Virus record (IMG/VR): IMGVR_UViG_3300010403_000001
Coordinates: 1-64,000 of that record
DNA from: a virus
Direction: 5' to 3' (one strand)
DNA: 64,000 nt
Below, one piece after another: positions 7,044 through 61,073 of this stretch (its first letter is position 1; the number at the start of each line of letters is the position of its first letter). The notes under the pieces were generated by a model. The model saw nothing but the letters and a program-made list of their open reading frames with translations, was not told the DNA's origin and did not search any database. The position numbers were made by a program, and so were the translations under genes.

Positions 7044-8021
7044 TTACGCGTATTGAGTCGTGATCAGCTGGACGCAGTTGGGAGATACTGTTTTCAGTAC
7101 TCGGTTGCTGCGGATACGGAGCATATTGCCCCGACGCTTTTCATCGCGGTAGCTTTCTGAGGTGAACAAGCCGCCTGGCGAATCTGCATCCCACACGATC
7201 GTGCGGCCGACTCCACCATTCATGAAGTCTCCTTCAGCCCTGCGGACCAGTGCGATATAAGTGTTTGGCCACACTGGAACCACCGTGGTGGTGGGTGTAG
7301 CTTTTTTAAGTGAGGTGTCGTAGGATTTCTTAGCAATCAAGATTTCCTGCAACCCGAACACATTGGCGAACATCTGCTCAGTGATCTGGCTGCCACCCTG
7401 GTTTACGTTCAAGTAACCGTAAACGTAGGTTTGGAGTTTCTGTGACCGGCGAATTCTGTTCCACAGCGACAAGCTCATGACTGCAGTCGTTGGGACTTCT
7501 CCCAGGAAGGTCATGCGCTCGATTGCCGCATTCATATCCAGTGGAACATCAAACGTGGCGATGTTGGCTTCCGTGTAGGCTACGGTTGAGTTGGTAGCCG
7601 TGAAGGTTGAGGAATTGTAAAGGGTCGTTGCAATCTCAAGCTCGTAATCCAACATCAGTGAGTTCATCAACAGCTTGGAGGTGATAACCTCAGCGTCGAA
7701 GAAACTTTCCATCCGGCGAGCTACGACATCATCAACGCGCTCTTCCAAACCGAACTCTTCGGTCTGGTAGCTGTCCCACTCGAATTTACGAGTGAGTTCG
7801 TTGTAGGTGCCGGTCTCATTTCGTTTGGTGGAGCCGTAGCCAGTTCCCGCTTTCAGGAGCTCTGCAGCACCGATACGGAATTTAGGATAACGACCTACTT
7901 CACGTCCACTGGGATAGGTTGGGTAAATCAGTTGTCCGATGTAGAGTTTTTCCTGGGCAACTGCTTCCATCAACACTGTGCTGATGTCTGCCCTTGGTAC
8001 ACTGTCAGTTGTATTAAACAT
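7044..8021 (-). CDS. Major capsid protein (lambda gpE-like)
   Basis: 325 residues, length and composition of HK97-fold capsid proteins of the lambda E type. It follows the decoration gene in the standard order. The first 12 residues, MFNTTDSVPRAD, are shared with the 1415-residue protein at 17518-21765. Tandem E-E-R-V-D-D-V and VWDADSPGGLF regions are typical of the capsid spine and C-terminal beta area. The leader contains a C-rich box (CCCCCAGAGC) just before the ATG. Confidence 0.85.
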   Translation of the reverse strand: MFNTTDSVPRADISTVLMEAVAQEKLYIGQLIYPTYPSGREVGRYPKFRIGAAELLKAGTGYGSTKRNETGTYNELTRKFEWDSYQTEEFGLEERVDDVVARRMESFFDAEVITSKLLMNSLMLDYELEIATTLYNSSTFTATNSTVAYTEANIATFDVPLDMNAAIERMTFLGEVPTTAVMSLSLWNRIRRSQKLQTYVYGYLNVNQGGSQITEQMFANVFGLQEILIAKKSYDTSLKKATPTTTVVPVWPNTYIALVRRAEGDFMNGGVGRTIVWDADSPGGLFTSESYRDEKRRGNMLRIRSNRVLKTVSPNCVQLITTQYA

Positions 8022-8039: not shown

Positions 8040-8423
8040 TTATACGAAGATCACTCGGACAATTGCTCCGCTTGCAGCCGTAAAAGCGTCTACTGAGACT
8101 GCGACCACATTAGATCCACTGGGGACCAACATGCCTGCGTTCGCTGCATCCAACGCCAGGGTTGCACCTGCGGCCACTGCGGCACTCGATGCACCGATCA
8201 TTGCATAATGGACTCCGGAATACCGGCGATGAACGGCAATGGCTTTACCGAGGTAAACGCCATCCTCCTGCTTGGGCATGGCCCGGATCATGGTTCCGAT
8301 CATGACCGCGCCGTCGGATGAAGTTGCGATATCAGCTCCGGTCGAGGTCAGTTTAATGACCTTGTACTCCTGACCTGTCAGGTCGCCAGCTGCTTTAAGA
8401 CTGATTACATTATTGGTATTCAT
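8040..8423 (-). CDS. Capsid decoration protein (DUF2190-like)
   Basis: 127 residues, small beta-barrel-like protein rich in Ala/Gly/Val, ending in AIVRVIFV. Similar proteins lie between protease and capsid genes in many siphoviruses and are annotated DUF2190 or head stabilisation proteins. The start is preceded by TTCCCCCCAGAACAA, a leader sequence found at three other gene starts here in similar form. Confidence 0.7.
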   Translation of the reverse strand: MNTNNVISLKAAGDLTGQEYKVIKLTSTGADIATSSDGAVMIGTMIRAMPKQEDGVYLGKAIAVHRRYSGVHYAMIGASSAAVAAGATLALDAANAGMLVPSGSNVVAVSVDAFTAASGAIVRVIFV

Positions 8424-9761: not shown

Positions 9762-9775
9762 GCTGCATGCCAGAT

Positions 9776-9866
9776 TGTCAACGGGTGGGGGGAGCCTCCG
9801 TTAAATAAAAATGAGGTTAGGTTGTTTCAAACGGGAAGGGCTCCTCCCCACCTTACTGGATTGACA
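9776..9866. promoter_or_regulatory. Divergent control region with two TTGACA boxes
   Basis: A leftward TTGACA (9781-9776) lies 20 nt before the protease ATG, and a rightward TTGACA (9861-9866) lies 26 nt before the start at 9887. No good TATAAT follows either at 16-18 nt. They belong to the recurrent box described in the findings. Confidence 0.5.
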
Positions 9867-9886
9867 TAAGAATGTTCCTGTAGTGT

Positions 9887-10075
9887 ATGAAAAAGAAAAC
9901 GGGCCTAAAAACGCGTAAACTACCAACCACAAAAGTTATAGCCACAGAACCTGAATCTCCACCGGAGCAATCCGATGATAATCTTTCAGAAAAAGAATGG
10001 CAGAAAGAGGTTCAAAAGCATTGCCAGCCTGGAGAACCTATACCTGACTGGCTGGCTGCTAAAGCCCCTCGGTAA
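9887..10075 (+). CDS. Small unknown protein
   Basis: 62 residues: a basic N-terminus, then an acidic middle and QPGEPIPDWLAAKAP at the end. It is the only rightward gene in this stretch and ends next to the convergent 82-residue gene. Function unknown. Confidence 0.45.
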   Translation: MKKKTGLKTRKLPTTKVIATEPESPPEQSDDNLSEKEWQKEVQKHCQPGEPIPDWLAAKAPR

Positions 10076-10324
10076 TCAGTGGCAGGGCTCCCACCAGTCG
10101 GAGCAAAATCTATCTGCCGGCCATGGAAGTGTATCGCTTCCATTCCAGCGATTAAAGTAACGATTACTGCAGCATTTCTTATCTTCGCTCACGAACCGGC
10201 AATTTGCGCAGCATGATCCACCGACTGGAACACGTAATGCCGGAACATGATCTTTTGGATATCCGATCTCTCTATGGCGAAATTCAAGGACCTTATCCAG
10301 GGTTTCGGAGAGATCGGATTCCAT
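10076..10324 (-). CDS. Cysteine-rich protein with an N-terminal LDxxxxF motif
   Basis: 82 residues. Residues 8-15 (TLDKVLEF) match the motif that recurs in the neighbouring virion-type proteins. Residues 34-80 hold six Cys (CCANC, KCC, FC, PC) with WNGSDTLPWPADRFCSDWW, a pattern resembling small high-potential iron-sulfur-like proteins of phages; zinc binding is an alternative. The ATG sits immediately after a TAATATTACCCC palindrome. Confidence 0.6.
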   Translation of the reverse strand: MESDLSETLDKVLEFRHREIGYPKDHVPALRVPVGGSCCANCRFVSEDKKCCSNRYFNRWNGSDTLPWPADRFCSDWWEPCH

Positions 10325-10325
10325 G

Positions 10326-10348
10326 CCGGAAAAGGGGTAATATTGTCC
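10326..10348. repeat. Dispersed TAATATTA palindrome, copy 1 (imperfect)
   Basis: CCGGAAAAGGGGTAATATT is followed by GTCC instead of ACCCC, so the right arm has decayed. It lies 1 nt upstream of the start codon of the leftward 82-residue gene. Three other copies are at 23364, 49091 and 62927. Confidence 0.7.
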
Positions 10349-10408
10349 TGTTTATTTTAGGGTTTGCCTAGGTAAGTGGCTAAAATTTAGGTCCAAAATC
10401 GTTCCAAA

Positions 10409-10579
10409 TTAACGCCCCAAGTAATGCATAGATGCGAGACCACCGAAGAGATTGGCGGCTACCAGAAATGCTAATCCGGCCGCAATGAGTTTTCTCCAGA
10501 TCGGATCACCAATCTGGAAGCAGGCAATGACGAAACAGACGAAACTAAACGCTAATAGTACTAACCCTAAGTTTTGCAT
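10409..10579 (-). CDS. Small membrane protein
   Basis: 56 residues with two hydrophobic segments, about residues 3-20 (LGLVLLAFSFVCFVIACF) and 33-48. An AGGAGA ribosome site precedes the ATG. It lies between two motif-bearing leftward genes. It could be a holin-like or virion membrane peptide; nothing decides this. Confidence 0.6.
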   Translation of the reverse strand: MQNLGLVLLAFSFVCFVIACFQIGDPIWRKLIAAGLAFLVAANLFGGLASMHYLGR

Positions 10580-10589
10580 ATGTTCTCCT

Positions 10590-11207
10590 TTATTTCTTTC
10601 TGACCTTCTTTAAAGCTGATCCGATTTTATCCCACGCTGCTCCTCCGAGCTTTCCACCAATCGCGCCACCAGCACCCCCAAGCACAGTTAGTCCACCAGC
10701 TCCGAGGATTCCTGGTCCACTTTTATTTGGTGCCATTCCTGGTTGATTTGGTGCGATCCTATAGGTTTTGACCATGGCATTTGGGTCAGGTCCACCTTCT
10801 TCCTGTCCAGTAAACTCTCCGAGAGGATTACGCGGCCGTGGATCAGTTTGGAATTTAATCAGTTCGTCCAGCTTTCCGGACACAAACTTATAGTTCTCCA
10901 TTCTTTTCCCTGCGTCCTGGATACCGCGAATGATACTTTTGTATTCAGCCGCCTCGCTCTGGCGTTTTCGTACAGCCAGACCGAGCGGGGAACTACCAAT
11001 GGACTTTACGCCCTTACGTGGGAAGATCCTTACCCCCCCGCCTTTAATTGGAACCTTCCATGCGAATTCGATCAACTCATCCAGTTTGGATGACAGCTGA
11101 TTCGTATCGGTTTCCCCAACTGCCTTCTTGCGTGCTTTCACTTTAGCGAGCAGTTTCTGAATGGCTGTCGGGGCAGCATTGTAGGATGTTCCAGCATCAA
11201 GATCCAT
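10590..11207 (-). CDS. Motif-bearing virion-type protein with two KLDELIxF copies
   Basis: 205 residues. KLDELIEF at 41-48 and KLDELIKF at 112-119 are near-identical. The C-terminus has a Gly-rich hydrophobic segment (about 168-188) and a basic tail (KKVRKK), a plan also seen in the 282- and 197-residue proteins. Gly-zipper helices of this sort occur in phage ejection and internal virion proteins. The start overlaps the stop of the preceding gene. No enzyme domain. Confidence 0.55.
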   Translation of the reverse strand: MDLDAGTSYNAAPTAIQKLLAKVKARKKAVGETDTNQLSSKLDELIEFAWKVPIKGGGVRIFPRKGVKSIGSSPLGLAVRKRQSEAAEYKSIIRGIQDAGKRMENYKFVSGKLDELIKFQTDPRPRNPLGEFTGQEEGGPDPNAMVKTYRIAPNQPGMAPNKSGPGILGAGGLTVLGGAGGAIGGKLGGAAWDKIGSALKKVRKK

Positions 11208-12055
11208 TAGTTCTTCTTTTTGCGATTAAAGAAGCCGCCTACCTTTTTTCTGATTTTCCCGCCAATCTTTACACCACGCTTGGCTGCATCTTTTAGTTGC
11301 TTCTGTTCATCTTTGCTAAACTGCCTAAATTCAATAATGCCATCCAGCTCGGTCTTGAGCTCGACCAGTTTCTGGATCTTTGAAAATCCACTATATTGCT
11401 GCTGTAATTGCTGTGGCCGGTTCAGATACCGCATCAGTTTCGGGAATGGAAACTTCAACACGGCAGCCGGTGATAAATCTGCAGGGAATTCTTCCTGGAT
11501 AATTTTACTATGTGGAACTGCTCCATCAGAGAATGGATTCAGGATATGCTCGTCGAACTGGATGGTTTTCTCCTTGGAGTTTAGCTTTAGATTCGGCAGG
11601 ATAGTCTTTAGCTTGGCAAGCGCCATCCCCAATCCTTGACCAATCGATCGTCCTGGGCCCTTAGCGATTCCCTGTAGGCCCGTGCCACGCACACCACGAG
11701 AGAAGGCAGATCTTCCGGCAGCCCAATTCGCCCCATATCCACCGGACCCCTGTATGGCTTTATGGCCGAGATATCCACCAATACCTGCCCCAGGAAGGAC
11801 ACCAAGCGCCGCCGCACCAGCGAGGTGAGATGTCTTAGGCTCCTCGTAATCATATGCAAATTCAATGACTGAACCGAGATTATGGTTTAGTTCGCTCAGG
11901 CGGACAAGCTTGGATGTAGTATTCATTTTCTTTTCCCGGTCTGGTTTCCAGCCGGTTTTACGAAGGGTGCCGTATACGTAGGCATCTTTCTTTTCTCCCT
12001 TGAAGCCTTTTTTATTGGCTTCCTTTTTGAGGTTGAGTTCTAAAGCGACAGGCAT
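11207..12055 (-). CDS. Motif-bearing virion-type protein
   Basis: 282 residues. The first 40 residues (AYVYGTLRKTGWKP) resemble a short basic segment often found at the N-terminus of phage proteins. Motif copies are LGSVIEF (60-66), the weaker KEKTIQF (161-167) and LDGIIEF (237-243). A Gly/Ala hydrophobic stretch lies near 78-102 and the C-terminus is very basic. A TTGACA box starts 20 nt upstream. Role inferred: internal or ejected virion protein. Confidence 0.55.
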   Translation of the reverse strand: MPVALELNLKKEANKKGFKGEKKDAYVYGTLRKTGWKPDREKKMNTTSKLVRLSELNHNLGSVIEFAYDYEEPKTSHLAGAAALGVLPGAGIGGYLGHKAIQGSGGYGANWAAGRSAFSRGVRGTGLQGIAKGPGRSIGQGLGMALAKLKTILPNLKLNSKEKTIQFDEHILNPFSDGAVPHSKIIQEEFPADLSPAAVLKFPFPKLMRYLNRPQQLQQQYSGFSKIQKLVELKTELDGIIEFRQFSKDEQKQLKDAAKRGVKIGGKIRKKVGGFFNRKKKN

Positions 12056-12401
12056 ACCATTTCAACCGGTGTCAAGCCGGAGTAGTAAACCTTTAACAAT
12101 TTGCCTTCAATAGCGAAACAGAGATAAAACACACGATTATTTGAGTGAGTCTTGAAAACTCATACAAAAATGGTTTAGCGGGTTCGACTCCCGCACCGTC
12201 ACGCTATGACGATATAAACTAAAAGCTGAATGCTGAAATCTGATAAGCTGAATTTAATGAAAGCTGATCGATGAAAGTAGAAAGCTGGTTAAAATCCGTG
12301 GTAAAACCTGCCCGACACTGAGAAGTGCGGGAGACGCCGCGTGTGGCGTTTCACTGGGTTCACGGCTGCTGTCCGGAGGCAAAATCCCAACAACAAACAA
12401 C
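12056..12401. other. 345-bp intergenic control region at a divergent junction
   Basis: No gene seen. It holds a leftward TTGACA box (12075-12070), a tRNA-like T arm (12178-12194), three AAGCTGA copies plus one AAGCTGG (12223-12288), two hairpins (12311-12331 and 12334-12349), and an ACAA-rich leader before the start at 12402. Taken together it looks like a transcribed, structured 5' region; an origin or regulatory RNA cannot be excluded. Confidence 0.4.
12311..12349 (+). ncRNA. Two adjacent hairpins in the 5' leader
   Basis: CCCG(A)CACT and AGTGCGGG close on a GAGA loop, followed by ACGCC-GCGTGT-GGCGT. Compact hairpins with a GNRA-type loop suggest a structured leader. No riboswitch class recognised. 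Confidence 0.35.
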
Positions 12402-12602
12402 ATGAACGAAGATCCGAGATTATACGAAATAGCAAAACGAATCACCTTTGAGGCCGGGTTCCCGACCTGGACTGATCCTCGCACCGGTGAGACACATCGT
12501 AATCCGAAATTAACCAAGAAAGGAAAACCAAATGGACCAAGTAAAAGTAAAAAGACTAAAACTGCTAGCAACAATAAAGAAAAACCGAAAGGCGCATCGT
12601 GA
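12402..12602 (+). CDS. Small basic protein
   Basis: 66 residues; residues 1-35 look folded (LYEIAKRITFEAGFPTW), the rest is Lys/Ser/Asn-rich and disordered. It overlaps the start of the next gene by 71 nt, and the low-complexity tail may simply be the next gene's leader read in frame. Preceded by an AACAACAAACAAC leader. Confidence 0.45.
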   Translation: MNEDPRLYEIAKRITFEAGFPTWTDPRTGETHRNPKLTKKGKPNGPSKSKKTKTASNNKEKPKGAS

Positions 12603-12900
12603 TCTATTCCTGAAAGCCCAGGAGGGATACAGGAAGGACATGATCGAAGAGCTCGATCGGATGCTGAAGGATGCCAAGGATGGCAAGCAGATTCGTCGAG
12701 CAGTCATTATGCCGGAACCACAGGATCACACTCCTGATTATGATCGGGTCATTGCCATGCTCGAAATGAGCGTGGATACAGTGATCGAGCTGGATGCAGA
12801 TTCGTTCGACAATTACGTCATGGATAATTGGGCGTGGAGGGCGAATGCCTTGGCTACCAATACCATGTACGCCGCGAAGGCTGGATTGAGAAGGAAGTGA
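12532..12900 (+). CDS. Unknown protein, helical N-terminus
   Basis: 122 residues. An AAGAAAGGA site precedes the ATG. The first 55 residues are a charged helix; the rest (PDYDRVIAMLEMSVDTVIEL) may be a small helical domain. It heads a coupled rightward set of three. Function unknown. Confidence 0.6.
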   Translation: MDQVKVKRLKLLATIKKNRKAHRDLFLKAQEGYRKDMIEELDRMLKDAKDGKQIRRAVIMPEPQDHTPDYDRVIAMLEMSVDTVIELDADSFDNYVMDNWAWRANALATNTMYAAKAGLRRK

Positions 12901-13076
12901 AACGAAAAAAGAAGAGGACATTCCTCTGTAAAGAACCGGGAGGTGCAAATCTCCCTGATGAAGAATTCACGATAACCGCTAAAGACATGGAGGATGCCAG
13001 GGAACAGGCATCTGTCTGGAACGCAGTCGTGATACGAGAAATAAAACCAAAACAAGAAAGGAAAGCTAAAAGATGA
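12897..13076 (+). CDS. Small basic protein
   Basis: 59 residues from a GTG that overlaps the previous stop as GTGA; the longer frame from 12828 would overlap by 73 nt and is less likely. The core resembles FTITAKDMEDAREQASVWNA, a short alpha/beta unit common in phage proteins of this size. It overlaps the next start as ATGA. Confidence 0.5.
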   Translation: MKRKKKRTFLCKEPGGANLPDEEFTITAKDMEDAREQASVWNAVVIREIKPKQERKAKR

Positions 13077-13621
13077 AGTTCAACATTACAATCACTGAAG
13101 CACTGGCAGAAATTAAGACGATCGGTAAACGCGTATCAACCAAACAAACACAGCTCAATAGCTATCTCCTGCGGGATTCGAAAATGATCGATCCCATGGT
13201 GAAAGATGGCGGGAGCCCGGAATACATTAAACGTGAACGCCAGGCGATCCTCGATCTGCAAAAGCGGATTGTCGATCTCCGGTTCGCAATCCAACAAGCC
13301 AATATGACTACCAAACTCACGATGAATTCGTCTGAGAAAACGGTATTCGAATGGCTGATATGGCGTCGTGAAGTCGCACCCCATGTTCAGGTTCACCTGA
13401 GTCGTATGTGGGAGCTAATTCAGGGCGGTCGCTCAATGGCTCAAAAGCAGGGAATCAACGTAGTGGCGGCAGCCGCTGCAGTTCAGGGCAGTAATGATGC
13501 GAAGGAAATCGTTGTTAACGTCAACGAATTAGAGCTCGCAAAACAGCGCGAAGAAGTGGAACAACTCCTTGGCGATCTGGACGGCAAGCTGTCTCTACTT
13601 AACGCAACAACAACCATTTAA
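13073..13621 (+). CDS. Coiled-coil protein of unknown function
   Basis: 182 residues, mostly helical, with coiled-coil heptads around 12-75 and 145-175 and an Ala-rich linker (VVAAAAAVQ). Coupled to the gene before by ATGA. No known domain recognised. Confidence 0.6.
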   Translation: MKFNITITEALAEIKTIGKRVSTKQTQLNSYLLRDSKMIDPMVKDGGSPEYIKRERQAILDLQKRIVDLRFAIQQANMTTKLTMNSSEKTVFEWLIWRREVAPHVQVHLSRMWELIQGGRSMAQKQGINVVAAAAAVQGSNDAKEIVVNVNELELAKQREEVEQLLGDLDGKLSLLNATTTI

Positions 13622-13777
13622 TCGATGTGGAGTCCAGACACGGACAAGGCTTAGGCCACGTTCCGGCAACGGACTGTAAATCCGCCCATCAAATGGGGCC
13701 GGAGGCAGCAATCGTGGATGGGTAGCGCGTGGTGATCTGGGCTCCCTTCCTCCCCAGAACAAGAAAACAACAAACAA
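13622..13777 (+). other. Structured leader with tRNA-like hairpins and C-rich box
   Basis: Contains CGGACTGTAAATCCG (13670-13684), which mimics a tRNA-Tyr anticodon arm, then CCCATCAAATGGG (13685-13697), which mimics a variable arm. No T arm or acceptor stem follows, so it is not a tRNA. The C-rich leader TTCCTCCCCAGAACAA (13747-13762) and an ACAA-rich stretch lead into the start at 13778. Confidence 0.45.
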
Positions 13778-14311
13778 ATGAAAACAACACTACCAACAGC
13801 AAAAGAGCTGACTGATCTCGGCTTCCGGACGGCAGCTTATGAATTAGAGAAGCACAAAGAGCTCGGCAACAAAGGGCTTCGAGAGAAGCTCCGTGTGGCG
13901 TTCGAGCACTACCGGGTGGTAGAGCCCGAGCATATTGATCGGTTTAATGAGAAACTTAAGGCTGAAACCCTTAAGAAAACAACCAGGTTGAGACGAAATG
14001 ATTATAGAGACGAGATCAAAATAATCAGGACGACTAAGTATCAAAGACTCCAGTTCACGTCGATTCACAACTATACAGCAGCACCACCACGTGAGGTGCT
14101 GGTGGAGTTGAAAAAGGCGAAGGAACTCGGGTGCTTTGATTCATTTGAAATCGCCACGATCAACGAGGTTCATGATGAACACGTGCAAACCATCAGGATG
14201 GAAGATCCTATCCTGTTCGGTCGTATCGAGAACAGCGACAATCGTTATTTCATTGCCCAATGGGATGACGATGTGAAGATCGAAGATATCCTGCGAGAGG
14301 ATGAGGGATGA
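13778..14311 (+). CDS. Unknown protein, paralog of the gene at 61678
   Basis: 177 residues. Strong paralog of the 160-residue leftward gene at 61678-62160: shared AFEH[YF]RV near residue 45, CFDSFE[IV]ATI, and NRYFIAQWDDDVKIEDIL at the C-terminus. No enzymatic motif visible. The two copies lie 48 kb apart on opposite strands, and in both places the next gene begins with a [KP]KD[LI]LK-type segment. It may be a conserved phage regulator or structural adaptor. Confidence 0.65.
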   Translation: MKTTLPTAKELTDLGFRTAAYELEKHKELGNKGLREKLRVAFEHYRVVEPEHIDRFNEKLKAETLKKTTRLRRNDYRDEIKIIRTTKYQRLQFTSIHNYTAAPPREVLVELKKAKELGCFDSFEIATINEVHDEHVQTIRMEDPILFGRIENSDNRYFIAQWDDDVKIEDILREDEG

Positions 14312-14493
14312 AAACAAAAGATCTACTCAAATTCGCGGAAAAGAAGACCGATCCTGACGAAGCGGCACTGAAGGAATGCGCCAATATTGCGAAAATGATG
14401 CGCGGTCACGTCTGGGACGGCCCACCAAAATCGCAATTACAAAAGAAGGGATTCTTTGCGAATTCGCCAGTCGTGGCGCTTCTCGGTCGGTAG
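14308..14493 (+). CDS. Small protein with N-terminal KDLLKFA segment
   Basis: 61 residues, coupled by ATGA to the preceding gene. Its start MKTKDLLKFAEKK resembles the N-terminal LPKDLLKYA tag of the three tandem genes at 60816-61678, which also follow the other paralog of the preceding gene. So a two-gene unit appears duplicated. It ends 1 nt before the convergent ligase gene. Confidence 0.55.
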   Translation: MKTKDLLKFAEKKTDPDEAALKECANIAKMMRGHVWDGPPKSQLQKKGFFANSPVVALLGR

Positions 14494-14494
14494 T

Positions 14495-16456
14495 TTACTT
14501 ACCTTCATCAACAGCGATAAATGAAGGTGCTCGGAGTGCGCCGCTGGGGTATTTACCCTGGTGGCGCACTCGTGCCGTTCGTCCGACATATTTCTCCAGA
14601 TCCCTGCGGGTTTCATCTGTGAATCCGGTGCCTACTTTTCCGATAGTGCGTCCACTAGAATCAGCGTAAGTGAAACCACCAGGAGCTCCGTGAAATTTAC
14701 CAGTGCCAGGAAATGTGCCGGCGATCTTAACATTAGCCTCCTTCGTATGTTTAACCTTAATCATTTTACCATCAGATGGATGAATTATCACGCCCTCCTT
14801 CGTCAGGGGATGACGACCTGACCGCACTTTCTCATACAATCGAAGAGCTGCGGAAGGGGATTTGGCTTCTTCAGGAGCATGGAATGTGCTCCTTGGCAGA
14901 TGTGTCAAAGTTTCTTTTACTTTTGCAAGCCGCTCGGGATAAGGTCCTTTATCTCCGGCGACATCAAAAGGCATCACTTTCAACTTCACCCCGGAAGCCT
15001 TCTGCTTCCGAATAGATTCACCAATATGACTATTCAAAATACCAGACAGATCTTGTGGTGGAATACTCTTCCCCCGCACTTTACCATAGAGTTCACCTAT
15101 CAGCGTCCGCTGGTGCTCTCGTGGTATGTCTATTGTGGGCCTTCCCCGGAAGACCCTTTCAGTGTGAACGGGATGCGTTCCCGTTGTCTTGCTAACACGA
15201 TGGCTCAGGATCTCAGGACGACCTCCTGCAGTACTTACGTAGACCAACGCACCATCAACCTTGGGCTGAACCGATGAACCTGATTCTAACCTTGATAAGT
15301 ATCCCTTCGCTTCTGATGGCGATAGTGATTTCGCAGCTGGTTTATGTGCTCCTTCTGGCGGTTGCACTGGTTGCGCTTTTGTGTGTAGCCATCCGGCTTT
15401 GGTTTTTATAAATGCCAGGCGATGTGATCCCTTGCGATCCGATAGTGTCGCATGTAGCTCGCCTGGCGTACTCTTTGTGACCAGGGCTTTACCCAGGTCT
15501 TCACTCTTTACTGTCCCGGCACCATAGCCGGATGGTATCTCCCCTTCCCATCCGAGGTAGCTATGTCGGTGGGTGGGTTGTTGGTGGATGGCGATTTTCT
15601 GTCCATGAGCTGGTAGATCTTTCCTGGTTGCCCATGAGAGCAGTCCATGGTGGCGATTGCCAATTCGCACATCCCTATGTAGTCCTGCTCGTTTGGCGTG
15701 ATGTTGCTGGACATTGTAATCGAGAAGCTCACCTTCTTTGAATACTGGAAGTTCTTGTGGTGGTTCATCTACTGACGTTGGTTGATGTAATTTTTTTTTA
15801 TCCGAAAATTGGATCAGGTCATCCAGTATCACCGTAAATTCACCAATGGTCTTACCCTTCATACCACGGAACGGCCAAACCTTATTGCTGCGGAGTAACT
15901 TTACCTTCTGGGCTAAATTACTTGCGGCGAGGGTGCCATATGGTGGAACCAAGGCTTTGAATCGTTTACCTCTTTCAAGCGGCGATGTTAGACCGGGTGG
16001 AAGCGCAAGAAATCCTGCCCTGGAAATATCGTGGTATTTAGTCACAGGTGCATGGTGTAACCATTTCGCAGTCCTGAATGCGATCTTAGCACCTCGATTA
16101 GGATTGTTGGCGAACTCAATCAGGTCATCCAATATGGCGATCAATTCTTTCTCGAACACCCTGGCACGAACGGTCTTTTCACCTTTTTCTTTCTTAGCAA
16201 CGATCCGGTGGTTCCCGTCCTCCACGAAATATTTTCCACCAATTTTGTGAAGCATTGGTAAATCACGGCCGGGCTTCTTCTTATATTCCTCTACGATATG
16301 CCGCTTTACCGCATTCTGGTGTGAGACAATTTTACTAATGGGAATCTTCTGAACCTTGGACTTTACATCCTCTGGATATAGAGGGTTGTCCTCCCATTTG
16401 ACCGTCTTGAACTGGATTAGATTATCCAGCAGATTAGTAATCTGGGTGATCGCCAT
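14495..16456 (-). CDS. ParB-like / phosphoesterase / ATP-dependent DNA ligase fusion with motif linkers
   Basis: 653 residues. In order: LLDNLIQF (9-16); a ParB/sulfiredoxin-like domain (about 35-100, ISKIVSHQ, EDGNHRI); ILDDLIEF (108-115); a short unknown region; ILDDLIQF (210-217); a LigD-type 3'-phosphoesterase-like domain (245-360, HHAKRAGLHRDVRIG); then an ATP-dependent ligase adenylation domain with the nucleotidyl Lys in KVDGA (399-403), GELYG (454-458), EGVII (554-558) and KMIKVK (564-569), and a C-terminal OB-fold. It would seal or process DNA ends. The same short motif precedes each domain and the gene sits among virion-type genes, so I infer an enzyme packaged with the particle; that is untested. 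Confidence 0.75.
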   Translation of the reverse strand: MAITQITNLLDNLIQFKTVKWEDNPLYPEDVKSKVQKIPISKIVSHQNAVKRHIVEEYKKKPGRDLPMLHKIGGKYFVEDGNHRIVAKKEKGEKTVRARVFEKELIAILDDLIEFANNPNRGAKIAFRTAKWLHHAPVTKYHDISRAGFLALPPGLTSPLERGKRFKALVPPYGTLAASNLAQKVKLLRSNKVWPFRGMKGKTIGEFTVILDDLIQFSDKKKLHQPTSVDEPPQELPVFKEGELLDYNVQQHHAKRAGLHRDVRIGNRHHGLLSWATRKDLPAHGQKIAIHQQPTHRHSYLGWEGEIPSGYGAGTVKSEDLGKALVTKSTPGELHATLSDRKGSHRLAFIKTKAGWLHTKAQPVQPPEGAHKPAAKSLSPSEAKGYLSRLESGSSVQPKVDGALVYVSTAGGRPEILSHRVSKTTGTHPVHTERVFRGRPTIDIPREHQRTLIGELYGKVRGKSIPPQDLSGILNSHIGESIRKQKASGVKLKVMPFDVAGDKGPYPERLAKVKETLTHLPRSTFHAPEEAKSPSAALRLYEKVRSGRHPLTKEGVIIHPSDGKMIKVKHTKEANVKIAGTFPGTGKFHGAPGGFTYADSSGRTIGKVGTGFTDETRRDLEKYVGRTARVRHQGKYPSGALRAPSFIAVDEGK

Positions 16457-16457
16457 A

Positions 16458-17048
16458 TCATATCTTCTTGCCTACTTTTTTCACCCATTTCTGAAGCCTT
16501 TTCCCGGACCTCATCAGCAGCGATCGAGTAGCAAGGCTGCCGGTAGCAATGCCGGCTCCAGTCAGAGCTCCTCCACCAATCAATGCTGCGGCTTTAGGAA
16601 AACTAGATTTCCCACGGCCGGTTAATTCATCGTACTCTTCTGGAGTAAGACGAATCTCGAAATTAATAATAGCATCCAGCTTGGCAGATAGCTGAACCAG
16701 TTTGGCATCAGAGCTCAATGACTTTCCCGCCAATCCCTTACCTATTCCTTTCACATGTCTCCAGATACGAGGACCAATGGAACCGATATCCTTACCAGTT
16801 CTTATCGTTCCAGTACGAAGAGCACTAGCGATATCATATGATTTACGACCTTTGATTTGTCCCCATGCGGCTCCAGGAACTTGCTTCCATGGAACACCTC
16901 CTGCATGCACACCCCTGGCATACAGGTATCCCGGGACCCCAACAGCTGCTCCCCCAATCGCTAGATTCCGCTTCTCGCGTCCGCTCAATAAGGGTTCACG
17001 ATCCGGCTCGGGTTCGGGATATGCAATAGGATAAGAAGGTCTAGCCAT
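16458..17048 (-). CDS. Motif-bearing glycine-rich membrane-type virion protein
   Basis: 196 residues from the ATG at 17048 (a TTG lies one codon before). It has hydrophobic Gly/Ala segments near residues 30-45 and 153-175, the motif LSAKLDAIINF around 120-130, and a basic C-terminus (WVKKVGKKI). Same plan as the 205- and 282-residue genes. A TTGACA box starts 22 nt upstream. Probably a virion or ejection protein. Confidence 0.55.
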   Translation of the reverse strand: MARPSYPIAYPEPEPDREPLLSGREKRNLAIGGAAVGVPGYLYARGVHAGGVPWKQVPGAAWGQIKGRKSYDIASALRTGTIRTGKDIGSIGPRIWRHVKGIGKGLAGKSLSSDAKLVQLSAKLDAIINFEIRLTPEEYDELTGRGKSSFPKAAALIGGGALTGAGIATGSLATRSLLMRSGKRLQKWVKKVGKKI

Positions 17049-17063
17049 CAATTTTTGCCTAGA

Positions 17064-17555
17064 ATGTCAACGGACCAACCCATGTCGCCAATCAATAAAA
17101 AACTATTCCAGGATTCCTTGCGTCATGTGCGCAGGGAACTTAAAACAATGAAATTCGGAAAAAAGAAAATAATGGAGACCAAAGTCTCACGGACGCTCAT
17201 GCCGAGTATCATAAAGAAAGGTTACTTCACCGATGAGGGAGAGATCTTCGTCCCGATCCTTCAATCTAAAATGGGGGTGAGGGATATACTCCGGCATGAA
17301 TATGGCCATGCTCTCTTGTTTCAGTATCCGAGCATCAAACAGAAAGAGGGCTTTGATCTCTTTGGATATAGCACAAATACAGATGATTACGCATCAGATT
17401 ATGCCATGGTGAATCCGGAAGAAGATTTCTGTGAAACCTTTATGGTGTACATGAAGACAAAGGGAAAGTTCCCATGGAATGAAGGCTCTCCACGTCTGAA
17501 AAAGAAATGGCAGTTTATTACCGCACTGAAACGCGGTTTCGGTCCTTCCTTGTAG
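17064..17555 (+). CDS. Putative zinc metallopeptidase
   Basis: 163 residues from the ATG at 17064 (a TTG at 17055 or ATG at 17082 are alternatives). LRHEYGHALL carries the HExxH zinc/catalytic motif, and NPEEDFCETFMVYM about 55 residues later supplies a plausible third zinc ligand Glu, the layout of gluzincin-like peptidases. No signal peptide. It is a lone rightward gene that overlaps the end of the 1415-residue gene by 38 nt. The substrate is unknown; processing of phage or host proteins is possible. Confidence 0.65.
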   Translation: MSTDQPMSPINKKLFQDSLRHVRRELKTMKFGKKKIMETKVSRTLMPSIIKKGYFTDEGEIFVPILQSKMGVRDILRHEYGHALLFQYPSIKQKEGFDLFGYSTNTDDYASDYAMVNPEEDFCETFMVYMKTKGKFPWNEGSPRLKKKWQFITALKRGFGPSL

Positions 17556-20500
17556 TAGCAGCTACAGCCGCACCGGCAGTTGCTGGAACTGCAGCTAATC
17601 CAGTAGTTACCTTCTGATAGTTTTTGACCGGATTTCCTTTATATGCAATCAAGCGTCTGAAATAATTTGAATGCAGCGGTTCCTTGGTGGCCTCACGCAA
17701 TGCTTCTCTTTCATTATATCCCCTGAATCGTAAATCCTGGAGATGAGCACTGAGGACCTTTTGTCCCTTCTTGAGTTCTTTTACCACTTCAGGATTCTTT
17801 CTGCCGCGCCATTCACTAACAGCTTCCTTATGCCAGGAATCCAATGCCGAAGCGGGCGAATGCCTGAAAGCCGAATAATGCTCCAGGACGTGAGGATGTA
17901 TACCTGATTTAGGACTTCCAACATCCCAGATCTTTGGGGATTTACCAATAAGCCATTTGACGGGAGCGGATTCAGGATGACGCAATGCCGAACCGGTAAG
18001 CTTCCCAGTAATACCTTGGTTAAGAATATGTTGAGACGCTTCCAGATAATCAGCGACCTGCTTCCCATAGTTCGTTGGATTACCGGCTAATTTATCGATA
18101 CGCGATCGAAGTCCGATCCTGGCAAATTTACCAGCTCCTCTATACAAAGGAATCCCAGCTGCAGCTACTGCTAAACCCGCAGCCACATTGTGTTTTCTCT
18201 TAGGTTCCTGGAATCGAATCTCTTCCAATCTGGAACTTAATTCTTCCTTAGAGATTTTACCCTGAGCAACCTTTTTAAAGAAATCCTTTTCCTTCGCCTC
18301 GCCTACTTCCTTTTCTATCTGGGCCGGAGTCTTCATCTTACCAGTCACAGGATTGAATTTACTGTGTTCGTACTTAGGTGGAGTTGTCAGAGGCTTATCA
18401 CGCCACCTGGACAATTCTTCTCTGGCACCATGGAAGAACCCGCCAACTTTACCCAGCCCTGGAACATCCTTAGCATATGATCCACGCTTAAAACCTTCCA
18501 TGAGTTGCCCAATACGGCTTTGAGGATGTGCTTGCTTGGCCCAGTTAATAACTCCTCTACCACCCTTGATTGTGGCTATCAGTCCAGCAGTAGTGAGGGC
18601 TCCGGCCACCCATGGCTTTTCCCATTCGTTCTTTCGTGGACGACCGCGTGGATCAATGTTGGGTAGACCCTGACGCTTGAGATTAACATCCCTGAGCAAT
18701 CGATGTGTTCGGCCGGCATACTTTTTGACTTTCTGGGCCTGTCCGATAGTGCTGTAAGTTCTTCCGTACAGTTTCTTATGCGCCCATTCCTGCAGCCAAT
18801 CTGGACCCAGGTCGTCTGGGTCATCTGGCCTGACATCGAATTTCACCAGTTTAATCCGTGAGAGAAATGCATGTTTGGCTAGCTTCTTAAGTCCGTATCC
18901 AGCTAGAATAGTACCGCCAATAACTTCCGGAGCGAGCTCAACTCGTTTACCTCGCCAACTTCGTTCACCGAATTGATCTCTTGTAGTTTTGCCATACAGC
19001 CGAGCAGCCTTCTGGGTTGCTAAACCGATACCAGCACCAGCCAAAGTAGATTTAATTAATTTGGATGGTTTTCTTGCTGCCAGGGCACCGATACCAGCTC
19101 CGATTAATGTCGTGTGCCCATACAATCGGTCGGCTCGATCGATATCTCGTTCATGAATCTGCTTCATGTATCGATCACGAGCCACTATTTGGCGCTGACT
19201 CTGGAATTGAGTTAATTGCGATTCAGGAAGTAAGCCCTTCTGTTCAGCTTCCATTTCTTCTCGCTTTCTACGTTTGTTCTTTCTATGAGTGTATATCTTC
19301 TCGTATATCAATGGCAATGCAGCAACTCCACCGGCAACCGCCAGATCAGACTTAAGCCCAAACTGGATCAGTCTTTGCCTGGATGACATTTGTTGTTTCC
19401 TTCTTTTTTTCAGTTGTGCCAGAGTGAGTCCGACCAGGCCAGTCGCCGCACCTCCAACAAGACCGCCCACGGCGATTTTACGACCTATGCCGCTACCCTT
19501 AGGGGCAAACTTCTTAAAAAGAAGCTCACTGGCTGGATATGCTAATCCTCCTTCAATCGCTCCAATAGCAATGTCATGCGCTGTGTGATCCTGTGTTGTG
19601 CCAGCCAACTGAGCACGGACTTTATCCAGGGCACTGAACTGCACGTTTTGCCGACGGCCGTTATGCGGAGTAATGCCAATAGTTATGGTAGCGCGTTGCT
19701 CTCTGGGTTCTCTTGGTTTGGGTTGTCGAGGTTTATAGAGATTGAGGATCTCCCTGGCTTCATGCCGTTGATGCGCCCGTTTGTCGTAACGACCCAATGC
19801 ATATCCACCAACTGCACCACCAGCTAAAGTTCCGGCAGCGATCAATTTGAGTCTGCCGGCACGCCTGGCGCTCTCCTGCCCCAATCTTTCAGTCAGCTCA
19901 CCAGTCTGCCTTTCGTAGGTTGATTTTGCAGCAGTAACCCCTTCTTCACGTCCGAGTGTGTGACCCTTTTTGAATGCTTCCCCATGCTTAGCTGCATGTT
20001 CTGCACCAAGCTTTTCGGCCTGAGCTTTTAATGCTTCTTCTCCAAGATGTTCCCTGGTTTTTGCTTGCTCCCGTAGAGTTTTTATCACTCCAAGGTTCTT
20101 TGTATGGGTTTCTTGTAACGCTCGAAGCGCCCTCATGTCCATCGGCTTAATATCCTGGACTTTGCTACCACCAGCAGCCCTGATAAATTTCGTCCATTTC
20201 TGTCGAGCTATTTGAAATGTGGAAAATGGTTTAGCCTTTTTCCCAGCGAGTTTTTCGCTCTCAAGCCAGGTTCCAGGAATAGCTGTGGTGGATTTCGACA
20301 CACCTGTTTTCCCAGCCTGTCTGAAAACTTCCAAAGCTTCTTGCGCTTCACGCGGAATTGGAAACTTGGCAAACTGGATCTCTTTTAAGCGTGATTTCAT
20401 CTGCTGTGTTCGGCTGCGTTTGCGAGCTGCATGAATAGCCAAAGCGCCGCCGGCCAGTACTCCAGCGGCCCCGATACCAATCCCGAGTTTCCCAAGATGA

Positions 20501-21765
20501 GGGAAACCGGTTGCAGCTTCTGCTATCGGAGTTGTGAAAATCTTTCGTTCTTTCAAAATCTTCTGCTTAACCCCACTAAGTCCTGCAAACTTGCTGCGCT
20601 CGTACGTTGTATCCATGTGCCGCTTCAATTTCCGGATACGTCCAGGCGTAATTGGTTTGGTGGTTCTGCTGCCTTTTTGTAAAATATCCTGAATGCTGCT
20701 GACGCTAACCTCAGATAGCGGTGTGCCGCCATATTCATATGGTTTATCAGTGATTAATCCCATAGCTCCACGAGCCTGGGTTTTAATGTCTTCCGGACTT
20801 TTCCGAATCAGGAAATGCTGATGGATTTGTTTTTGGACTTCATGCTCTTCCTCTGGAGAGGCAGCAGATTTGAGTTGCTTATGTAATTTAGAAAGTTTGG
20901 ATTGCCAATCTCCCTGGTGTTCTTCAGCTATTTGGGTCATTCCTCTTGTGGCGATCCGGCTTAAACGTTCACCGGCATGAGTCCTGGCGGCCGTGGATGC
21001 CTCTTGTCGTTGTTTGGCGAGGCCCGATAGCCGCTTCTTGTATTCAACCATCCGTTCAGGATGAGCTCTGGCAGATTCAAGGCTGGCATTTTTGGCTCTG
21101 ATTATAGCCAGGCTTTCCCTTGCTTCCCCTGCCATGTAATCACGATGTAGCTTCATCTGACCCTGAATATGCTGCACTGTCTTTGAGCGTAATTCTCTGG
21201 GTCCAACCCTTTCTCCAGCATATTGCTCCTGAACTTCTTGCCTATGTCTCCCCCACACTTCACTTGTGGGAATTTTCTCTATCTCCGATTGGGCTCGAAC
21301 GTACTTCTTCCAATTCATCCGCTGCCGCTCGTAGACAGGAACGTCTTTAAATGTCTCGCCGGGCTTTATATCGGCTTCTTTAACCGTAGCCCACTGTTTA
21401 CCCTTGGGGGCGGAATATGGTTGAGCTTGCCCAGCAGCGAGAGGCCTTAACGCCTTAAGACGGGTCGCAGGTTTACCGAGTGGTTCTCCAGCTACCGGTT
21501 CCTTGAACCCACCTTCTACCTTCTGCCATCGGACAGGACGCCCAATGGTGTAGACCTGTTCAGGGTCCATCTTTTGGGATACTGCTTCTTTAATCTTTCG
21601 ACCGCTTACTGAAATGTTGTATTTGCTTTCCGGGGCATAAGCTGTGTGGCGTTCGCCGGCAGCGAATTTGATTTCGACGTTCAGCTTCCTGGCCAATCGC
21701 TTCAAAGCTGCAAGCGGGCGCACTTTACCTTCTGCGCGAGGCACTGATTCTGTGGTGTTGAACAC
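17518..21765 (-). CDS. Giant motif-bearing virion-type protein sharing the capsid N-terminal 12-mer
   Basis: 1415 residues from a GTG with AGGTGA ahead. It begins MFNTTESVPRAE, nearly the same as the capsid start. The rest is basic, helix-rich, with repeated units: a Gly-rich hydrophobic segment (near 428-444, 640-660, 765-785, 885-915, 1055-1065, 1195-1205), a basic stretch, then a motif: RLKEIQF (459-465), RRQNVQF (704-710), RQRLIQF (796-802), RIKLVKF (970-976), RLEEIRF (1179-1185), plus a weaker LNVEIKF (28-34). This suggests a polyprotein-like chain of membrane modules. Ejection or internal head protein is my inference. No lytic or peptidase motif seen. Confidence 0.6.
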   Translation of the reverse strand: MFNTTESVPRAEGKVRPLAALKRLARKLNVEIKFAAGERHTAYAPESKYNISVSGRKIKEAVSQKMDPEQVYTIGRPVRWQKVEGGFKEPVAGEPLGKPATRLKALRPLAAGQAQPYSAPKGKQWATVKEADIKPGETFKDVPVYERQRMNWKKYVRAQSEIEKIPTSEVWGRHRQEVQEQYAGERVGPRELRSKTVQHIQGQMKLHRDYMAGEARESLAIIRAKNASLESARAHPERMVEYKKRLSGLAKQRQEASTAARTHAGERLSRIATRGMTQIAEEHQGDWQSKLSKLHKQLKSAASPEEEHEVQKQIHQHFLIRKSPEDIKTQARGAMGLITDKPYEYGGTPLSEVSVSSIQDILQKGSRTTKPITPGRIRKLKRHMDTTYERSKFAGLSGVKQKILKERKIFTTPIAEAATGFPHLGKLGIGIGAAGVLAGGALAIHAARKRSRTQQMKSRLKEIQFAKFPIPREAQEALEVFRQAGKTGVSKSTTAIPGTWLESEKLAGKKAKPFSTFQIARQKWTKFIRAAGGSKVQDIKPMDMRALRALQETHTKNLGVIKTLREQAKTREHLGEEALKAQAEKLGAEHAAKHGEAFKKGHTLGREEGVTAAKSTYERQTGELTERLGQESARRAGRLKLIAAGTLAGGAVGGYALGRYDKRAHQRHEAREILNLYKPRQPKPREPREQRATITIGITPHNGRRQNVQFSALDKVRAQLAGTTQDHTAHDIAIGAIEGGLAYPASELLFKKFAPKGSGIGRKIAVGGLVGGAATGLVGLTLAQLKKRRKQQMSSRQRLIQFGLKSDLAVAGGVAALPLIYEKIYTHRKNKRRKREEMEAEQKGLLPESQLTQFQSQRQIVARDRYMKQIHERDIDRADRLYGHTTLIGAGIGALAARKPSKLIKSTLAGAGIGLATQKAARLYGKTTRDQFGERSWRGKRVELAPEVIGGTILAGYGLKKLAKHAFLSRIKLVKFDVRPDDPDDLGPDWLQEWAHKKLYGRTYSTIGQAQKVKKYAGRTHRLLRDVNLKRQGLPNIDPRGRPRKNEWEKPWVAGALTTAGLIATIKGGRGVINWAKQAHPQSRIGQLMEGFKRGSYAKDVPGLGKVGGFFHGAREELSRWRDKPLTTPPKYEHSKFNPVTGKMKTPAQIEKEVGEAKEKDFFKKVAQGKISKEELSSRLEEIRFQEPKRKHNVAAGLAVAAAGIPLYRGAGKFARIGLRSRIDKLAGNPTNYGKQVADYLEASQHILNQGITGKLTGSALRHPESAPVKWLIGKSPKIWDVGSPKSGIHPHVLEHYSAFRHSPASALDSWHKEAVSEWRGRKNPEVVKELKKGQKVLSAHLQDLRFRGYNEREALREATKEPLHSNYFRRLIAYKGNPVKNYQKVTTGLAAVPATAGAAVAATTRKDRNRVSVR

Positions 21766-24783: not shown

Positions 24784-24979
24784 CTTCATAAACCCGCTTG
24801 CTTCCATCAGGATATGTAATCAATCCCTCACCATTGCTGCGGGTAAGGGTGGTCCAGGTCATTTGGACCAATGGATGCCAGTGGCGCTGTTCCCAGAAGA
24901 ACTTCTGCCTGTCAGGCGAGAGGGTTTCGAGTTTGCTGAGGTTTTTAAGGTATTGCTCGGTGAACGAGACGATACTCAT
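24764..24979 (-). CDS. Small protein downstream of the portal gene
   Basis: 71 residues, with Trp-rich FFWEQRHWHPLVQMTW. ATGA overlap with the portal stop shows coupling. It may help capsid assembly, but no function is known. Confidence 0.6.
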   Translation of the reverse strand: MSIVSFTEQYLKNLSKLETLSPDRQKFFWEQRHWHPLVQMTWTTLTRSNGEGLITYPDGSKRVYEVPSFQD

Positions 24980-26811
24980 TTACGTGCTGGTTTCTTCTTA
25001 GATACGGATTTCGATTTTGCTCCGGACGGCCGGCTGCCGTTTCCTGGTGCTGCTGGTTTGGGATGTAGGGCTTTGATGATTCCGAGATCTGGTTCTGGGA
25101 CCATTTGTTCGGCCATGGCTTCAGGGATTCCGAACACTTTCTTTAATGTATTCTTAGCGCTGTCTGGGTCAAGTTTACCATCACCGACAGCCTTCAAGAT
25201 ATCGACAAGTTGCTTCACGCCCTTGTCACCGATTGCTTCAATTGTCCCGGGTTTCGGTGGTGGCACTGGTCCTGTGACCATTGCAGCCTTCTGTGTGGTG
25301 ATGTCCGGATACAGCATTCTGGCGAATACCTCCACCGGTACGTCGGTCTCCGCTCCGATCTGAATTGCTTCATTGGCAGTGGTTGCATTGGAAAGGAACA
25401 CCTCACGTGGGCTCTTGCCGTATTTCCCGGTTATGTCACTGACTGGAATAAGCCCGGCGCTTACGGCTGCGATATCGGCATCCATCTCATAACCCACATC
25501 GGTTTGGATGGATAGACCGAAATGCCATTCGCATTTTCTCCAAAGAGGATGCGGAGGAAGGACACCCAGAGCAATGCCTTGAGCGATTACCTTTTGGCGG
25601 ATACGGTTTAACACCTTATGCTCAAGTAGCTGCTGCCAGTATTCGATCCTCCGCAAAGCTTGCTGAACTTCAATACGGGCAGTCACTCCACCCAGGGTTG
25701 CTAGATCCCATAGGAACCCAAATGGTAAATCCAATGACACTGCCATTTTACGAATCAGGATTTGGACAAACTCCATGAATGCACCACTGGGACGAGCAGG
25801 CGGAGCAAGCATGTTGAAGACTTCGCCTTCTGCCATCCTCATGATCTTTCCCCATTCGGCCGGTTGGGTTGGTGTTCCATCTGCAGTCTTGTCCTTCCAA
25901 GCAGTAGCACCTTGGTTAGCAAATGGATCTTTGATCCCAATCAGTGCGGCCCATTGACTCTGGGTTTTGCCGGCAATCTTTTCCGATTCAATCCATTCCC
26001 TGATGTCCCTTGCGTCATTTAGTAAGCGGAGTAGTTTGGTTCGTCCGCGATATTCATCAGGGCGTTCAGGATCATGAAGGTGGATAAATGAACCAAACTC
26101 AATCTCTTGAGGCTTCAAGTACTGATTCGTTCGAGTTCTTTGAAAAATTCTATAGAACTGAATTCGACCGGTTTCTGGATCGAGCCCTACGCCTCCCACG
26201 TAATTCTCCTGAACGAGCTGCTCTAACGGTGATCCTATGCGATCTGCTTCAACAGCTTGTACACAAAACTCGCCAGTTGGAGAAAGCTCAGGAGCAATTT
26301 CAATCCAGCCATGATCCCCATCAATCAGGAAGCCCATAAATCCCATCTGGACCATCTTGAGCCATCGGCTGCGACCACTGAGATCGCAACGAACTGAACC
26401 ATCGTCATTGGGTTCATCTCCGCACCATCCGTGATAGAATGAATCGTATGCGTCGTCTATTTGCTCATCTCCAGTAAGAGATCGTGAATGGATCTTACCG
26501 CATACATACAGGGCGATCCTGGCCATCATTCCGCCAATGAATTCGAACTTTACCAGATCCCTGGCATCCCACATCGCTTTGAGACGGTCGCGGTTACTGC
26601 GCCAGGTTTCAGCAGATGCCTGAGCGAATAAACCGCCACTACCGCTTCGGCGTTCAGGGTTATCGTTGTATCCGTATGAGAATTGATGCTCGATCGTTCG
26701 AGCTTTCATCCGGACCAGTTTCTGGACTGGATCAAAGAATCCAATGACCTTGTCCCAGGCAGTAAGGCGTTGATCTGGCCTTTTGCCGTCCTCTAATTTC
26801 TTCAGATCCAT
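24976..26811 (-). CDS. Portal protein (lambda gpB type)
   Basis: 611 residues, the length of lambda-family portals. Typical features are the N-terminal acidic and Arg-rich domain, the conserved YRIFQRTRTNQY-type wing region, PFGFLWDLATLGGVTARIE in the stem, and RRIEYWQQLLEHKVLNRIR in the helical C-terminal part. The last 40 residues are Lys/Ser/Pro-rich. It forms the dodecameric DNA gate at the unique capsid vertex. Coupled to gpW by TAATG. Confidence 0.9.
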   Translation of the reverse strand: MDLKKLEDGKRPDQRLTAWDKVIGFFDPVQKLVRMKARTIEHQFSYGYNDNPERRSGSGGLFAQASAETWRSNRDRLKAMWDARDLVKFEFIGGMMARIALYVCGKIHSRSLTGDEQIDDAYDSFYHGWCGDEPNDDGSVRCDLSGRSRWLKMVQMGFMGFLIDGDHGWIEIAPELSPTGEFCVQAVEADRIGSPLEQLVQENYVGGVGLDPETGRIQFYRIFQRTRTNQYLKPQEIEFGSFIHLHDPERPDEYRGRTKLLRLLNDARDIREWIESEKIAGKTQSQWAALIGIKDPFANQGATAWKDKTADGTPTQPAEWGKIMRMAEGEVFNMLAPPARPSGAFMEFVQILIRKMAVSLDLPFGFLWDLATLGGVTARIEVQQALRRIEYWQQLLEHKVLNRIRQKVIAQGIALGVLPPHPLWRKCEWHFGLSIQTDVGYEMDADIAAVSAGLIPVSDITGKYGKSPREVFLSNATTANEAIQIGAETDVPVEVFARMLYPDITTQKAAMVTGPVPPPKPGTIEAIGDKGVKQLVDILKAVGDGKLDPDSAKNTLKKVFGIPEAMAEQMVPEPDLGIIKALHPKPAAPGNGSRPSGAKSKSVSKKKPARK

Positions 26812-61067: not shown

Positions 61068-61073
61068 AATTAT

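Follow-up and report, generated by a model that had tools for sequence, protein, structure and literature searches.

A short peptide of about 12 residues, [EQ]-[LM]-[SN]-[AS]-[KR]-x-L-D-x-[LI]-I-[EQR]-F-[A/G], recurs 17 times in six leftward genes located between the portal gene and the putative capsid protease gene of an uncultured phage, and is probably a label by which this cargo is loaded into the phage head. The window analyzed here comprises 64,000 nucleotides (positions 1 to 64,000) of the 79.7-kb IMG/VR virus record IMGVR_UViG_3300010403_000001. Judged from sequence, we give a probability of about 0.55 to the reading that the motif is a multi-copy head-loading tag on internal proteins of the 'polyvalent' type, resembling the capsid targeting sequence (CTS) of T4. 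Few phages have known head-targeting signals, which are hard to recognise, and the tag offers a compact, testable candidate for loading proteins into phage heads. Its presence at every module border would provide a sequence rule for listing the injected proteins of uncultured phages and would explain domain gain and loss in such proteins. No description of this tag was found in the open-access literature.

The first-pass annotation had counted at least 14 copies of the motif, and all 14 strings were found in the leftward open reading frames that it named. To these were added KLNSKEKTIQF in the 282-aa protein as well as KLNVEIKF and LSAHLQDLRF close to the N-terminus and the C-terminus, respectively, of the 1415-aa protein. 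The pattern LD.[LIV][IV].F has seven matches in the six frames of the 64 kb, all of them within the tagged genes, while shuffled versions of the tagged proteins gave a mean of 0.006 and a maximum of 1 match in 1000 shuffles. In leftward order, the head module runs from the portal through the 1415-aa, the 197-aa, the 653-aa (ligase fusion), the 282-aa, the 205-aa and the 82-aa proteins, and continues with a probable protease-scaffold protein, a probable small decoration protein and the major capsid protein (Table 1; gene calls are greedy open reading frames). Except for the ligase fusion, the six tagged proteins had no Pfam or PHROG family match. The leftward module is interrupted by rightward genes and one tRNA-Ser (TGA; 12117-12202, +), which adjoins these genes.

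Table 1. Features of the head module and positions of the tag copies in the window.
Feature	Position	Strand	Basis or content
Major capsid protein	7044..8021	−	phrog_1005, E 1.1e-27
Probable small decoration protein	8040-8423	leftward module	position; weak PHROG match
Probable prohead protease and scaffold, 439 aa	8442..9761	−	position; H44, H72 and S123 invariant in 12 homologs
82-aa protein	10076..10324	−	tag DLSETLDKVLEF (10280-10315) near N-terminus; 11.9 bits in held-out scan
205-aa protein	10590..11207	−	tags QLSSKLDELIEF (11064-11099), FVSGKLDELIKF (10851-10886)
282-aa protein	11207..12055	−	tags ELNHNLGSVIEF (11858-11893), KLNSKEKTIQF (within 11555-11590), ELKTELDGIIEF (11327-11362)
653-aa ligase fusion	14495..16456	−	tags QITNLLDNLIQF (16409-16444), ELIAILDDLIEF (16112-16147), EFTVILDDLIQF (15806-15841)
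ATP-dependent DNA ligase catalytic and OB domains	14510..15301	−	PF14743, E 1.1e-9
LigD-type 3'-phosphoesterase domain	15374..15718	−	PDB 3p4h, E 4.3e-13
Module between tags 2 and 3 of ligase fusion	15842..16111	−	absent, with one tag, from L005 ortholog (alignment)
ParB-like module between tags 1 and 2 of ligase fusion	16148..16408	−	D-G-N-H-R core
197-aa protein	16458..17051	−	tag QLSAKLDAIINF (16659-16694) between Gly-rich segments; 23.2 bits
1415-aa protein	17518..21765	−	repeated Gly-rich hydrophobic modules
Tags of 1415-aa protein	21664-21693, 20371-20406, 19636-19665, 19360-19392, 18838-18867, 18211-18243, 17725-17754	−	
N-terminal VFNTTESVPRAE peptide of 1415-aa protein	21730..21765	−	mimics N-terminus of major capsid protein
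Portal protein	24976..26811	−	PF05136, E 4.6e-26; other border of tagged region

To avoid circularity, relatives were gathered using the major capsid protein as the query, and the window was left out of the motif search. An unsupervised search was performed on the portal-to-protease proteins of these relatives after Gly/Ala-rich hydrophobic stretches had been masked; without masking, a first search had returned such segments instead. Two runs converged on one motif family, each in its own register; their log-likelihoods were 413 and 425, as compared to 123-138 for shuffled sequences. In one register the motif reads [QER]-[LQE]-[LMSNR]-[SA]-[AKS]-[RLK]-[DEL]-x-[LI]-[IDL]-[EQ]-[FLI], and the other corresponds to the same putative helix shifted. 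Applied to the held-out window, the model derived from the relatives alone found 9 matches of at least 10 bits in the 2834 aa of the tagged proteins, where 0.18 were expected by shuffling, and none in the 18091 aa of the other predicted window genes. When each genome was left out in turn, six of seven phages displayed 5-7 matches per 2600-3400 aa of the region versus 0-3 per 15900-22700 aa elsewhere, repeating the window result in five of six related phages, and the distant G008 gave a single match. Pooled over the six phages, these are 37 matches in 18,281 aa between portal and protease and 7 in about 110,000 aa elsewhere. Conservation in homologs, which the first-pass annotation had set as a test of its proposal, is borne out: the relatives retain the motif, and in them it is restricted to the portal-to-protease region. 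Two of the claimed copies, RRQNVQF and RIKLVKF, fall below the model threshold and are supported mainly by their position and by an ortholog (KRRNVEFAA in L005).

To describe the tag, 77 non-identical copies were aligned on the final Phe, a residue partly fixed by the search pattern. The alignment carries information from about position −11 to +1, beyond the typical length of a cleavage site. Leu/Met and Ser/Ala are found at −10 to −7, Leu and Asp at −6 and −5, and an aliphatic residue at −3, followed by Ile at −2 (66 of the 77 copies), Glu/Gln/Arg at −1 and Phe at 0. Position +1, which was not a selection criterion, is Ala or Gly in 54% of the copies versus a background of 23%, and an excess of basic residues is seen further upstream, at −18 to −14. 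Lys and Asn are also tolerated at −1, as is Leu in place of the Phe. Between phages the tag drifts to LSAKLDDVIEF in L005, to MSARESLDEIRF in L012, L013, L009 and L022, to MSSRxRLIQF in the largest proteins and, further, to LSAKLRLREL/F in L016, SLRPGMIEF in L011 and LDKALTKFA in the bacterial genome region L070. The L014/L016 branch has a weak form of the tag (one match in G008), and in L025 and L070 its pattern is blurred. A structure model of the ligase fusion (four sequences, pLDDT 34.5) draws the tags as helices at a confidence too low to be usable.

The placement of copies at N-termini and between domains agrees with what had been described initially, and C-terminal copies were found as well. 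Of 30 proteins, 10 have a first tag whose end falls no more than 25 residues from the N-terminus. Internal copies make up the majority, with some at the C-terminus, and the distance from one tag to the next is mostly 60-220 residues. Several C-terminal tags lack the Phe and keep the remainder (NNQLDNLLT, LSSLLDDVL, LNARLDALINL, LSARLDTILNS). A Met lies at most 6 residues upstream of the tag or within its first two residues in 24 of 64 copies, compared to 16% expected, as if many internal tags may once have been the N-termini of separate genes.

The domains between the tags are mutually unrelated and include ParB-like DGNHR, LigD-type 3'-phosphoesterase and ligase, HExxH, LRAT-like, HNH, DUF6321 and DUF5872 domains as well as glycine-zipper segments; the DUF6321 match in the cargo of the relatives has an E value of 1.1e-21, while that of the HExxH peptidase modules (3.9e-5) lies below the cut-off. 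By sequence match, the 653-aa protein is a LigD-type 3'-phosphoesterase joined to an ATP-dependent ligase. The ligase domains, whose PF14743 match exceeds the cut-off, also match phrog_114 (E 1.3e-23) and PDB 4d05 (E 1.2e-6), and the phosphoesterase of the L005 ortholog matches PF13298 (E 5.9e-07). The core of the ParB-like module is invariant in five modules from the same or four other genomes, and the L005 homolog matches Pfam ParBc_2 weakly (E 0.07); searching PDB with the alignment gave no ParB match, the sole hit being implausible. The finding of this fusion suggests that LigD-type phosphoesterase-ligases join the proteins that are likely injected, and that some phages may supply an end-repair enzyme of their own. 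On the opposite strand within the cargo region, a small HExxH protein (RHEYGHALLF; 17055-17555, +) has weak Peptidase_Mx matches, and in relatives similar peptidases occur as tagged cargo modules.

Modules are shuffled at the tags. L010 is 99% identical to the window in its capsid fragment and 98% identical in its ortholog of the 82-aa protein; its ortholog of the 205-aa protein has one extra 134-aa unit of domain and tag, and the single first tag of the window protein stands where L010 has two, which have an identical 18-nt stretch in common. Likewise, the ligase fusion of the window carries one more such unit than its L005 ortholog, with the insertion point precisely at a tag. The 1415-aa protein consists of five blocks, arranged as A-D-C-B-E in the window and as A-B-C-D-E in G001, and block order also differs between L012 and L013. 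Tagged DUF6321 forms a stand-alone gene in L009 and is part of a 962-aa polyprotein in L013, and in L004 the genes that correspond to the locus of the 282-aa protein, which carries a Gly-rich hydrophobic segment, form a single fusion encoding 704 aa. A DPRPRN module, directly preceded by FVSGKLDELIKF in the 205-aa protein and by a tag in the relatives, forms the protein start in phages of the L014/L016 type. Over all pairs, a tag is found no more than 8 aa from 22% of alignment ends, as compared to 8% of random positions (p = 3e-6, with end points that are not fully independent).

Genes that lie between portal and protease and encode unrelated, exchangeable domains with one short signal in common match the pattern of head-targeting signals, and it is on this basis that we read the motif as a docking tag. 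The tag would be a short, probably helical peptide, copies of which may dock inside the prohead as it grows; the scaffold or the inner face of the capsid protein would be the most likely site. In this way, a mixture of enzymes together with glycine-zipper membrane proteins could be drawn into the head for ejection with the DNA. Since each module has its own tag, units of tag and domain could be inserted, lost, reordered or split without losing the means of being loaded. The prohead protease may in addition cut the internal copies at their I-x-F-[A/G] end. The first-pass annotation had proposed targeting, scaffold binding or a protease site; a conserved signal on unrelated, exchangeable domains was indeed found, but no partner site in the scaffold or the capsid protein.

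Whether the motif serves docking or cleavage has to be weighed on its form. Its conserved length, its helix-like pattern and the C-terminal copies without Phe favor docking, while the internal copies, with their strict I-[EQR]-F-[A/G] core, would fit a cleavage site equally well. At P3, T4-type and herpes-type head proteases favor an aliphatic residue, and at P1' a small one. We therefore considered that the motif is primarily a prohead-protease site, I-[EQR]-F|[A/G], which splits polyproteins whose loading depends on something else. The residues at −2 to +1 and the location of the copies between domains are consistent with this, and the propeptides of phage SPN3US provide a case of one protein being cleaved at repeated motifs (PMC10052503). 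However, conservation reaches −11 in a helix-like pattern, position −1 admits several residues and Leu can replace the Phe, cutting at the C-terminal copies would release nothing, and the protease assignment itself is weak; we regard a motif that is primarily a cleavage site as unlikely. By analogy with T4, docking and cleavage would be compatible. Somewhat less doubtful, but still only tentatively proposed, is a combination of both, in which the cargo consists of polyproteins resembling beads on a string, each bead having a docking tag that ends in a protease site, which are pulled in by many weak contacts and cut after I-x-F. If so, a free enzyme mixture would be ready for ejection, the LigD-type end-repair ligase could seal the incoming genome, and the swapping of tagged domains would be a route by which phages change their injected arsenal.

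Binding of the internal proteins to one another, in an internal core or ejection channel, rather than to capsid or scaffold could account for the many copies per protein, which suit a multivalent assembly, and for the tags adjoining hydrophobic Gly-zipper segments, a typical feature of ejection proteins that insert into membranes. The soluble ligase, HExxH peptidase, HNH and DUF6321 modules bear the same tag, however, and we consider this explanation improbable. A role after ejection into the host, for instance as a membrane-binding amphipathic helix or an intracellular address, is suggested by the amphipathic pattern and the flanking basic residues; it appears very unlikely, as neither the 82-aa protein nor the ligase needs a membrane and the tag tracks the head-gene neighborhood. 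That DNA repeats or recombination scars with no function in the protein account for the copies, as breakpoints coinciding with tags and the 18-nt identity in L010 might imply, is scarcely credible, since diverse codon use and a mean DNA identity of about 50% among copies point to selection at the protein level and the residue pattern persists between genomes with capsid protein identities of only about 65-75%.

The product of the gene adjoining the tagged region is a probable prohead protease-scaffold and a candidate partner or processor of the tag. In the relatives, this protein has weak family matches (phrog_4150, 2.4e-4; phrog_976, head maturation protease, 0.016), and a structure model of it draws a long C-terminal helix, at a confidence too poor for the helix to be reliable (pLDDT 51.6). 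Comparison with P2 gpO or with the Mu-type protease beside the related capsid protein of phage Bise by hhalign gave probabilities below 2%. No tag-like stretches were found in the capsid protein, and only weak ones in the scaffold. Residues 384-396 of the scaffold and its relatives contain a conserved RLFSAN.dGELHEFQ, and a conserved AIELAE or AIEFAE in the coiled coil resembles the end of the tag; these stretches are possible self-cleavage or docking sites. When the C-terminal FSAN..GELHEF and the coiled-coil xLAxQRDQAIELA were evaluated as tags against shuffled coils, p values of 0.002 to 0.3 were obtained, which is unconvincing and statistically not significant.

A separate similarity to the capsid protein lies in the largest tagged protein. 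The N-terminus of the capsid protein, MFNTTDSVPRAD (7986-8021, −), is copied as VFNTTESVPRAE at the start of the 1415-aa protein with a BLOSUM62 score of 47, compared to a shuffled maximum of 29. A capsid-like peptide was also detected in G004 (score 38), where it directly follows a tag at residue 104 of a 1460-aa protein, while that of G001 scored 28, below the maximum. As only 23 of 45 nucleotides are identical between VFNTTESVPRAE and the capsid N-terminus, the peptide appears to be kept at the protein level. Its presence in the largest protein of the window and of G004 suggests that these proteins contact the assembly machinery used by the capsid protein, and it is possibly a second assembly signal.

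In T4, a conserved targeting sequence is found on diverse internal proteins, including Alt (PMC3012670), and the targeting peptide is removed by the protease (a study cited in PMC10052503). The tag described here is likewise a short conserved peptide common to otherwise unrelated proteins, which are here presumed to be located in the head. In contrast to the T4 CTS, it has another sequence, occurs many times within one protein, including interdomain and C-terminal positions, and belongs to uncultured phages whose portal is of the lambda type and whose capsid protein falls into phrog_1005. As the T4 CTS is cut at (I/L)-x-E and the core here is I-x-F-[A/G], the tag may work like the CTS but is not a member of it. 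An N-terminal signal on the large packaged protein DarB of phage P1 is sufficient to bring a reporter into the capsid (PMC9024508); this signal is a single region with some evidence that folding is needed, whereas the tag is a repeated 12-mer, and these known targeting sequences of T4 and P1 are single N-terminal elements without interdomain repeats. Polyvalent proteins are described in the portion of PMC5512222 used here as large, multidomain, encoded among virion genes, equipped with ParB-like and HExxH domains and thought to be packaged and injected. The proteins of the window resemble them in having several distinct domains per polypeptide and in being flanked by portal and capsid genes. 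That portion contains no description of a repeated interdomain tag, and its 'ligase' refers to RNA ligases only, in contrast to the LigD-type phosphoesterase-ligase module found here. Encapsulation peptides of bacterial microcompartments, too, are short, helical and linker-fused to cargo, which they sort into a protein shell (PMC11157265, PMC12339742), but they are unrelated to the tag, which would act in a virus head and is present in many copies per chain.

Relatives were found in contigs assigned by binning to Akkermansiaceae and Planctomycetia. Neither the capsid protein nor the 1415-aa protein had a match among 50,697 phage records, and in the distant capsid relatives Bise and HXX_Dennis the portal-to-protease interval contains no such genes. 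As the tag itself was judged too unspecific, the pattern of the DPRPRN module was used for the collection-wide search; L081, found only in this way, has tags of up to 23.9 bits in its region proteins. A prophage search in the phyla of both metagenome-assembled genomes (MAGs) yielded one strong new case, L070, and otherwise distant capsids; three inspected genomes with such capsids had no tag. L070 is a copy of the region in a bacterial genome, one of 388 sampled from the phylum of the Akkermansiaceae MAG. Between its portal and protease genes lie genes for a LigD-like DNA ligase and an SRAP protein (9018-9947 and 10017-10736), both without an obvious tag, the ligase being of a second type, and next to them the gene for an 891-aa protein bearing an LRAT domain. 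Like this protein, the product of L008 1-3312 has an LRAT-like domain in a Gly-zipper-rich, probably internal virion protein, and the domain is possibly a lipid- or membrane-acting cargo enzyme.

The N-terminal LPKDLLKYA of the genes at 60816-61678, initially suspected to be a distant form of the motif, gave no 10-bit match and was rejected as a tag. These genes form a separate paralogous family, explained by two paralogous cassettes on opposite strands, 13778-14493 (+) and 61394-62160 (−). Each cassette encodes a protein of 160-177 aa ending in RYFIAQWDDDVKIEDIL beside a small protein with a KDLLKFA or LPKDILVHA motif at its N-terminus.
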